A stretch of 64,000 nucleotides of DNA from an uncultured Chromatiaceae bacterium (GTDB lineage Bacteria; Pseudomonadota; Gammaproteobacteria; Tenderiales; Tenderiaceae): the NCBI GenBank assembly GCA_945787735.1, contig CALZIQ010000002.1, positions 1 to 64,000 of the forward strand. The letters are read 5' to 3'. Of the stretch, positions 11,336 through 28,804 are shown piece after piece. A program made the position numbers and the translations under genes. Below the pieces are notes generated by a model. It was not told the DNA's origin. It saw only the letters and a program-made list of their open reading frames with translations, and made no database searches. The stretch's first letter is position 1, and the number at the start of each line of letters is the position of its first letter.

Positions 11336-12847
11336 ATGTGTGGTGTTATCGGAATAGTCGGTAAGAGTAATGTCAATCAGGCGCTTTATGATGGCCTGAC
11401 TGTGCTGCAGCATCGTGGCCAGGATGCTGCGGGTATTGTTACCTGCGACGGCGGTAAACTCTATCTGAGAAAAGACAACGGTCTGGTGCGTGATGTCTTT
11501 GCCACCGAGCATATGTTGAATCTGCGCGGTAATATGGGGGTGGGGCACGTGCGTTATCCCACCGCCGGTTGCTCCTCGTCAGCCGAGGCTCAACCCTTCT
11601 ATGTCAATTCCCCTTACGGCATCACGCTGGCCCACAACGGTAATCTGACCAATGCCGAAGAATTGAAGCGCGATCTCTATAATGAAGACCTGCGCCATAT
11701 GAATACCGACTCGGATTCAGAAGTGTTGTTGAATGTTTTAGCCCATGAGTTGCAGGTCCTGGGCAAGCTCAAGATTGATCACAACGATGTGTTCGAGGCT
11801 GTGAGTGCAGTGCATCGGCGCAGCCGTGGTGCCTATGCCGTGGTCGCCATGATCACAGGTTACGGTATTGTCGGCTTTCGCGATCCTAACGGGATTCGTC
11901 CAATTGTGTACGGCAAGCGAGAAACCGATAAGGGTACTGAATACATGATCGCGTCCGAGAGTGTAGCGCTTGATGCGCAGGGCTTTGAATTAATTGCTGA
12001 TCTTGAACCCGGCGAAGCAGTGTTTATTAGTTTGGATGGAAATTTGCACAAGAAGCAGTGTGCCGAGAACACCAAGTATTCAACTTGTATCTTTGAATAC
12101 GTCTACCTGGCCCGGCCTGATTCTATTATCGATGATGTGTTGGTCTATAAAGCACGTCTGCGTATGGGGGAATCTCTGGCGCAGAAAATCAAGCGTGAGT
12201 GGACCGATCAGGATATCAATGTGGTGATCCCAATCCCCGATACCAGTCGCACCTCAGCGCTGCAGTTGGCCAATGAACTGGGTGTGCTGTATCGCGAAGG
12301 ATTTATCAAAAATCGTTACATCGGCCGTACCTTTATCATGCCGGGACAAAAGCAACGAAAAAAATCTGTGCGTCAGAAATTGAATGCCATTGACCTCGAA
12401 TTCAGAGATAAAAATGTGCTGCTAGTGGATGATTCCATCGTGCGTGGTACGACATCACAGCAGATTATTCAGATGGCGCGTGAAGCAGGTGCGAAGAAAG
12501 TCTATTTTGCCTCGGCCTCTCCAGCAATTCGTCATGCCAATGTCTATGGCATCGATATGCCAGCCCCGGAAGAGCTGATTGCCTATGGCCGAACTGATGA
12601 CGAAGTAGCGCAGAAAATCGGTGCAGATAAAGTCATCTATCAGGATCTTGAGGATCTGATGGAGTCAGTACGCAAGCGCAACCCTGAGTTGGTGGATTTT
12701 GATACCTCGGTATTTGATGGCCGTTATGTGACCGGCGACGTGAATGAGGCTTACTTTGCCCGTCTGCAGGAGATTCGCAGTGACTCCGCCAAGGAAAAGC
12801 GCAACGGGCGAAATTCAGACATCATTGACTTGCATAATAATCCGTGA
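11336..12847 (+). CDS. purF: Amidophosphoribosyltransferase
   Basis: PurF makes phosphoribosylamine from PRPP and glutamine, the first step of purine synthesis. The 503-residue product starts MCGVIGIVG with the nucleophilic Cys at residue 2, without a long propeptide. The Ntn glutaminase part includes [18 protein letters not shown] and LAHNGNL. The phosphoribosyltransferase part has the PRPP-binding [14 protein letters not shown] (about residue 360). Length matches the E. coli enzyme. It ends just before the metZ riboswitch. Confidence 0.97.
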
Positions 12848-12887
12848 TTTGACAGGTTCTTCACCTTTCACTAAGATTCAGTTTAGT

Positions 12888-12940
12888 AGCGCCGATTTGA
12901 GCTCAGCTTGCGGGCGCGTAACAAATACTGCTAAAGAGAG
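12888..12940 (+). ncRNA. SAM-II riboswitch aptamer upstream of metZ
   Basis: The region matches the SAM-II (metA-motif) consensus as I know it: a P1 stem (GCGCC 12889-12893 with GGCGC 12913-12917), the conserved loop GATTTGA (12894-12900), GCTTGC (12906-12911), then TAACAAA and GCTAAAGAG (12930-12938), whose pairing with about 12902-12911 would form the pseudoknot P2. SAM binding to this fold normally lowers expression of methionine-synthesis genes, and the next gene is metZ. The class is best known from alphaproteobacteria and is less common in gammaproteobacteria. An Rfam RF00521 covariance search would settle it. Confidence 0.86.
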
Positions 12941-12945
12941 GCAAG

Positions 12946-12977
12946 CCTGCTTTAGTGAATGCTGAGCGGGTTTTTTT
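12946..12977 (+). terminator. Riboswitch-linked intrinsic terminator
   Basis: CCTGCTT (12946-12952) pairs with GAGCGGG (12964-12970), with two G-T pairs, around an 11-base loop, followed by seven T residues. It lies directly after the SAM-II aptamer and before the metZ ribosome site. CTTTAG at 12950-12955 is complementary to CTAAAG in the aptamer (12931-12936), so aptamer folding and the alternative hairpin compete for this arm. Confidence 0.82.
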
Positions 12978-13011
12978 GTGCCTGAAAGATAACAGGCCCT
13001 GGAGTAAAATA

Positions 13012-14199
13012 ATGAATAACGAATTCGAAGAATTTAATTTTGACACACTGGCGGTCAGGGCAGGGCAGGTGCGCACAGGTGAATCAGAGCAGTCTGAGCC
13101 GATCTTTCCCACCTCGAGCTATGTGTTTGGCAGTGCCGCCGAGGCCGCGGCGCGGTTTTCCGGTGAGCAGCCGGGGAACATCTATTCACGCTTTACCAAT
13201 CCTACTGTGCGTACTTTTGAAAAACGGTTGGCGGCACTTGAAGGTGGCGAGCGCTGCATAGCCACAAGTTCCGGCATGTCAGCCATTCTTTCAACTTTCA
13301 TGGCGCTTTTGAAAACTGGGGATCACGTCGTTTCATCCCGCGCCATCTTTGGTACTACCTCGGTGTTGTTAACGAATTACATGGCCAAATTCGGCGTTAA
13401 AACGACATTTGTGGATTTGACCAATCTGGATGGCTGGGCCAAAGCGATCAATACCAATACCAAGTTATTGTTTTTGGAAACGCCTTCGAACCCTTTGACC
13501 GAAGTCGCAGATATTCAGGCGCTGGCCGACTTGGCTCATCAGCACGGTTGTTTGTTGGTGGTGGACAACTGTTTCTGTACCCCTGCATTGCAACGTCCAC
13601 TAGAGCTGGGCGCGGATATCGTAATTCATTCCGCGACTAAATATCTTGACGGCCAGGGGCGTTGTATCGGTGGCGCAGTGGTTGGCAACGAAGATGTGGT
13701 TGGTAACGATGTTTATGGATTTTTGCGTACCGCCGGGCCAACCATGAGTCCATTCAATGCCTGGGTTTTCCTCAAGGGACTGGAGACCCTGCGTCTGCGC
13801 ATGGAAGCCCATTGCCGTAATGCCCAGCTATTGGCTGAATGGCTCGATGCACATCCCAAGATCAAACATGTTTATTACCCGGGCCTGGCCTCACATCCTC
13901 AGCATGCGTTGGCGGCCGAACAACAAAAAGGCTTTGGTGGCGTGCTCTCGTTTGAAGTGGAGGGTGTCAAAGACGCTGCATGGAAGGTGATCGATGCTAC
14001 ACGCATGATTTCTATTACCGCCAATCTGGGCGATACAAAATCGACCATCACTCATCCGGCCACCACTACACACGGTCGTTTGACACCGGAACAACGAGCC
14101 GATGCCGGTATTCGTGACAGTTTAGTAAGAGTTGCAGTTGGCTTGGAAGATATCGAAGACCTGAAAGCCGATCTTGATCGGGGACTGTCAAGACCGTAG
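13012..14199 (+). CDS. metZ: O-succinylhomoserine sulfhydrylase
   Basis: MetZ is a PLP enzyme that uses sulfide and O-succinylhomoserine to make homocysteine directly. The 395-residue product belongs to the Cys/Met-metabolism gamma family: PTSSYVFGSAAEAA, YSRFTNPTV, SSGMSAI, DNCFCTPALQRP, and the PLP lysine in HSATKYLDGQGRCIGG (about residue 205). The QGR loop is seen in MetZ. GGAG at 13001-13004 precedes ATG 13012, so the longer frame from 12955 is not used. The SAM-II element and terminator in its leader imply repression by S-adenosylmethionine. Confidence 0.94.
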   Translation: MNNEFEEFNFDTLAVRAGQVRTGESEQSEPIFPTSSYVFGSAAEAAARFSGEQPGNIYSRFTNPTVRTFEKRLAALEGGERCIATSSGMSAILSTFMALLKTGDHVVSSRAIFGTTSVLLTNYMAKFGVKTTFVDLTNLDGWAKAINTNTKLLFLETPSNPLTEVADIQALADLAHQHGCLLVVDNCFCTPALQRPLELGADIVIHSATKYLDGQGRCIGGAVVGNEDVVGNDVYGFLRTAGPTMSPFNAWVFLKGLETLRLRMEAHCRNAQLLAEWLDAHPKIKHVYYPGLASHPQHALAAEQQKGFGGVLSFEVEGVKDAAWKVIDATRMISITANLGDTKSTITHPATTTHGRLTPEQRADAGIRDSLVRVAVGLEDIEDLKADLDRGLSRP

Positions 14200-28605: not shown

Positions 28606-28804
28606 CACACAAAAATCGACTGGAATGTAACTATTTCGGCGCTGGCCGTGTCTTTAGGAAAGTGAAATTAGTCACATTTGCGAGTGCATTTTGAGCAAAA
28701 GCGTGACGTATTAGCTGTTTCTGCTTGACCTTATTACAGTTTTTTAAAATTAATGTCGATAGTGTTATTGCGGAGACGGTAATTATATTTTTTGTAGGTG
28801 CTTT

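Follow-up and report, generated by a model that had tools for sequence, protein, structure and literature searches.

The 90 nt at positions 12888 to 12977 of the window (the whole 64,000-nt stretch of Chromatiaceae DNA that we analyzed) raise the question of whether they form a SAM-II riboswitch that controls the gene downstream of them. We conclude that they very probably act as a SAM-II riboswitch that represses metZ through transcription termination. These 90 nt accommodate an aptamer, an antiterminator, and a terminator whose U-run comprises seven T; a promoter-like site flanks them upstream and metZ downstream (Table 1). The scores that identify purF and metZ both exceed NCBIfam cut-offs. 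The promoter-like site is 11 nt from P1 (12889), and this placement is the position described for SAM-II promoters by Corbino et al. (PMC1273637); at least 8 of 12 promoter matches were found in 108 of the 123 related leaders described below, mostly 6 to 11 nt 5' of P1. All the letters and coordinates given for positions 12888 to 12977 in the original prediction (P1, GATTTGA, CTCAGC, GCTTGC, CTAAAG, CTTTAG, GCTGAG, the terminator arms, and T7) were verified. The core of its reading, an aptamer with an antiterminator and a terminator, is supported by our analysis, whereas its claim of rarity is not, and a second pairing that it proposed fares less well than the first.

Table 1. Features of the purF-metZ region, in window coordinates
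Feature	Positions	Strand	Sequence or pairing	Remarks
purF, amidophosphoribosyltransferase, upstream neighbor	11336–12847	+		TIGR01134, 520 bits (cut-off 350)
Sigma-70-like promoter	12849–12877	+	TTGACA-17 nt-TAAGAT	10/12 consensus matches
P1 5' strand	12889–12893	+	GCGCC	P1 present in 71/71 aligned leaders (the leader finder itself demanded at least 4 P1 pairs)
SAM-II core loop	12894–12900	+	GAUUUGA	Same as RF00521 consensus; GATTTG invariant in 71 leaders
P2 pseudoknot 5' strand	12902–12911	+	CUCAGCUUGC	Partner 12930–12940
P1 3' strand	12913–12917	+	GGCGC	
P2 pseudoknot 3' strand	12930–12940	+	GCUAAAGAGAG	Includes predicted SAM-site nucleotides; GCTAAAG invariant in 71 leaders
Antiterminator hairpin	12930–12956	+	GCUAAAG/CUUUAGU (12930–12936/12950–12956) and AGG/CCU (12939–12941/12946–12948)	−8.3 kcal/mol
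Terminator hairpin	12946–12970	+	12946–12956 with 12961–12970	−12.4 kcal/mol
Terminator U-run	12971–12977	+	T7	
Probable Shine-Dalgarno	13001–13004	+	GGAG	Far 3' of terminator
metZ, O-succinylhomoserine sulfhydrylase, predicted regulated gene	13012–14199	+		NF006003, 714 bits (cut-off 522); TIGR01325, 596 bits (cut-off 510)

At curated cut-offs, Rfam returned no RNA match in the whole 64-kb window. The search for RF00521 that the original prediction had called for ranked RF00521 as the best family by E-value, with a match to the whole model at positions 12879 to 12951 (E = 3.8e-5), but the score of 30 bits falls short of the curated cut-off of 36. The motifs GAUUUGA, GCUUGC, and GCUAAAGAG in the window are those of the RF00521 consensus. 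Other RF00521 copies in the same class score up to 48 bits, and all 11 genomes examined from the window's GTDB family (11/11) contain a sub-threshold RF00521 match. Given these sub-threshold matches throughout the family, we built a new covariance model, R1, from 56 leaders (alignment A2), all of them from outside the window's family. On the window, R1 recovered exactly positions 12888 to 12977, with a score of 96.2 bits (E = 5.9e-21). By both models, the match greatly exceeds what chance would give. On the source genome, R1 found a single copy and no further match at E ≤ 1. A second R1 match in the window, at 28661 to 28747 (14.6 bits, E = 0.13), was treated as chance.

Leaders were collected from two sources, MetZ relatives and class genomes with an RF00521 match; once near-duplicates had been removed, 123 remained, and a U-run lies within 130 nt in 103 of them. 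The leader consensus reads GCGCC-GAUUUGA-N-UCAGCUUGCGGGCGC-N-AAAU-N-C-N-GCUAAAG(C/A)GA in the aptamer and CCUGCUUUAGC-loop-GCGGG-U7 after it. The pair immediately outside P1, which is unformed in the window, covaries in relatives (87/116, compared to a shuffled mean of 48). Inside the P1 loop, GAUUUGA is accompanied by GCTTGC at 12906 to 12911, and the five core pairs of the P2 pseudoknot between the loop and GCUAAAG are retained in 65 to 71 of the 71 leaders. Taken together, pseudoknot and P1 are 93% paired across leaders, which was unmatched by any shuffle. Judging from its core nucleotides, its pseudoknot, and its methionine gene context, the window element is almost certainly a SAM-II riboswitch, with SAM as the presumed ligand.

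The antiterminator hairpin occupies the 5' arm of the terminator, and positions 12930 to 12936 within it also belong to the 3' strand of P2. At the sequence level, the antiterminator and terminator pairings are mutually exclusive, and the antiterminator competes with the pseudoknot strand. The alternative fold that had been predicted, CTAAAG (12931 to 12936) with CTTTAG (12950 to 12955), proved to be conserved: a complement of GCUAAAG, with G-U pairs allowed, occurs between the aptamer and the U-run in 71 of the 103 non-redundant leaders. This count is the top of 420 permutations of the word (permutation mean 2.6), and some of the runners-up read the same block out of register; a mono-shuffle control gave a mean of 1.0 and a maximum of 6. 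In approximately 30% of leaders the complement is not intact; one group of these has CTTTCG. Most relatives form the same antiterminator hairpin, often longer, with energies down to about −20 kcal/mol. One pair is a U-G wobble instead of U-A in 15 of the 71 leaders; therefore, the pairing outlasts sequence change. We sought covariation beyond chance for the antiterminator helix in the leader alignment and found none, because the aptamer strand of this helix is invariant. The evidence for the antiterminator is therefore conservation of the opposite strand.

The arms of the terminator are CCTGCTT (12946 to 12952) and GAGCGGG (12964 to 12970). Across the alignment, 94% of cells in the terminator helix are paired, with seven double-change cells, a number reached by 0 of 500 shuffles; this helix, unlike that of the antiterminator, does show covariation. 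A simple terminator scan of the locus reported no terminator, probably because the stem has a bulge and mismatches; folding does find one. The single-sequence folding energy is unremarkable (z = 0.24) and is evidence neither for nor against the element. When growing transcripts were folded free of pseudoknot and ligand, the probability of the antiterminator was 0.89 to 0.99 for 3' ends from 12956 to 12968, and that of the terminator was about 1 from 12972, with its 3' arm out. At equilibrium, the full-length transcript favors the terminator over the antiterminator with or without the aptamer strand; therefore, the ON state must be kinetic. When polymerase reaches the U-run, its footprint still hides about ten bases at the 3' end of the transcript, so the antiterminator would be the favored fold at this point unless SAM holds 12930 to 12940 in the pseudoknot. 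Just 3' of the U-run lies a conserved UGCC(C/U)G (12978 to 12985 in the window), with TGCC no more than 12 nt away in 65 of the 103 leaders. Its possible pairing partners are GCGGG in the 3' arm of the terminator and GCGGGCG in the P1 strand.

In the mechanism we propose, transcription would start just 5' of P1. With abundant SAM, the aptamer would fold and SAM would lock GCUAAAGAGAG (12930 to 12940) into P2 with CUCAGCUUGC (12902 to 12911), leaving CCUGCUUUAGU (12946 to 12956) free to pair with GCUGAGCGGG (12961 to 12970); with U7, transcription would then end. When SAM is scarce, 12930 to 12941 would pair with 12946 to 12956 upon emergence, and the resulting antiterminator would hold the terminator 5' arm during passage of the U-run, allowing metZ to be read. 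Conservation, folding, and gene context all lend good support to the core of this reading, in which a SAM-II aptamer and a competing antiterminator make up a predicted OFF switch for metZ; SAM as the ligand, use of the promoter, and kinetic competition are what we infer. For the second predicted pairing, between CTCAGC (12902 to 12907, within the P2 5' strand) and GCTGAG (12961 to 12966), the letters are present and support for the pairing is weak. Of 101 leaders, 31 contain GCTGA, the most frequent of 60 permutations, although part of this frequency is explained by the stem of the terminator itself (UAGC/GCU). The pairing may help hold the terminator 3' arm, but our model does not depend on it.

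It is improbable that the aptamer is genuine but chiefly translational, with the hairpin and U7 forming a passive terminator that lowers metZ expression. Such an arrangement is reported for Sinorhizobium meliloti metA, where, as PMC9373788 describes it, a terminator 3' of a translational SAM-II aptamer is predicted to be unaffected by SAM binding. Here, however, GGAG (13001 to 13004) sits >20 nt past the U-run and outside the aptamer, and a passive terminator would not need its 5' arm conserved as the complement of an aptamer strand. Less probable again is that the same switch responds to a ligand other than SAM, such as a SAM relative: another SAM class offers a precedent for ligand switching, in the spermidine riboswitch that PMC10853860 describes as a close variant of a SAM aptamer, but the core nucleotides of the window element match SAM-II and the genes downstream serve methionine and SAM supply. 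We give least credence of all to a hairpin that is merely the purF intrinsic terminator beside aptamer-like letters left as a decayed remnant, given that, despite its position about 100 to 130 nt 3' of the purF stop codon, a promoter-like site separates purF from the aptamer and the entire 90-nt unit is kept before metZ in families with differing upstream DNA.

With the sensitive model R1, the predicted SAM-II terminator switch appears in 174 of the 369 class genomes sampled, where RF00521 yields 118 at E = 0.001 and 30 over its curated cut-off. The GTDB class takes in former betaproteobacteria. These counts contradict the original claim that such an element is uncommon in a gammaproteobacterium, and both SAM-II with terminators and SAM-II in gammaproteobacteria had already been reported between 2005 and 2007 (PMC1273637, PMC2258182). 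A MetZ-like gene is next in 101 of the 123 leaders, a sample partly drawn by MetZ; the class search, for which MetZ was not used, contributed 84 leaders, and a MetZ-like gene follows 62 of these but not the other 22. Downstream genes other than MetZ include MetK, MetF, MetX, and MetN, with names read from translated N-termini.

Several leaders depart from this layout. SAM-II elements lie directly 5' of metK (SAM synthetase, from its translated N-terminus) in L101, L120, L140, L152, L167, L177, L178, and L183; metK is not named as a SAM-II target in the consulted part of PMC4239095. Tandem SAM-II-like aptamers occur in L103, L112, L122, L134, L199, L234, and L235, with the second copy located after the first terminator and following the pattern GATTT(A/G)...(A/C)TTGC...CTAA. 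In L112, L122, and L199, this second copy has a distinct shared loop, GATTTAAG...ACAACTTGC. We do not regard tandem SAM-II as a novelty, since 44 are already published (PMC9481103). In L250 (about 1500 to 1590), P1 and GCUAAAG of a SAM-II variant are separated by an inserted segment about as large as a hairpin.

Overall, the window element belongs to a known class, SAM-II, and is a widespread, under-annotated gammaproteobacterial form of it, with ligand and switching as predicted above. According to Leyn et al. (PMC4239095), several gammaproteobacterial groups lack MetJ, and SAM_alpha is reported in alphaproteobacteria only. As of 2022, effects of SAM-II on gene expression were described as scarcely studied (PMC9373788), and the conserved antiterminator offers a compact SAM-II transcription switch that is open to direct testing.

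The window element shares P1, GAUUUGA, GCUUGC, the GCUAAAG 3' strand, and an H-type pseudoknot with RF00521 SAM_alpha (Corbino 2005, PMC1273637), as well as a promoter just 5', a terminator 3', and methionine genes. SAM-II aptamers with terminators were described in that 2005 study, in which the Agrobacterium tumefaciens metA SAM-II bound SAM with micromolar Kd and discriminated against SAH (PMC1273637); in 2007, SAM-II was reported from gammaproteobacteria, and its alpha- and betaproteobacterial copies were described as mostly accompanied by terminators (PMC2258182). The closest counterpart by gene is the S. meliloti metZ SAM-II riboswitch, the source of sRNA RZ, which, as PMC9373788 presents it, has the same gene, aptamer class, and predicted SAM-induced Rho-independent terminator but belongs to an alphaproteobacterium. 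Alphaproteobacterial SAM-II copies have a long GC-rich P2 extension, whereas the window copy has a short P2 end, and its RF00521 score of 30 bits compares with up to 90 for the best other-class copies. A terminator 5' arm complementary to GCUAAAG, found in 71 of 103 leaders here, occurs in 1 of 29 alphaproteobacterial-type leaders, in which the antiterminator, by a crude automatic analysis, more often uses the P2 extension and some core bases. We rejected the idea that the alphaproteobacterial antiterminator is wholly different: in several such leaders, the antiterminator also draws on the P2 3' strand, together with a few core bases, and the difference is therefore one of degree.

On balance, we slightly favor the view that the window element represents a separate SAM-II subtype of gammaproteobacteria, characterized by a short P2 and by a switch in which the ligand-binding strand itself is sequestered. 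Such a subtype would occur in about half of the class genomes sampled, would mostly be missed at the Rfam cut-off, and might also explain two published elements, RF02424 and metXZ. RF02424 (Bp2_287) aligns to window positions 12856 to 12976 on the minus strand. It is filed as an antisense-strand sRNA without a riboswitch label, and this Burkholderia 'sRNA' was placed 5' of metZ and metX by its authors (PMC3521395). Given this location and the SAM-II element found on the opposite strand at 20 of the 20 RF02424 match loci that we fetched (L232 to L251), RF02424 looks antisense to SAM-II leaders and is probably mis-stranded and misfiled. The betaproteobacterial 'metXZ' element, as Leyn et al. describe it (2014, PMC4239095), combines a pseudoknot and a terminator before metX or metZ and is thought to be antiterminator-based; it was published as a new orphan element. 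Likened by description, the orphan 'metXZ' element may be SAM-II, a lead that would bring it into the same class as the leader of metZ in the window.
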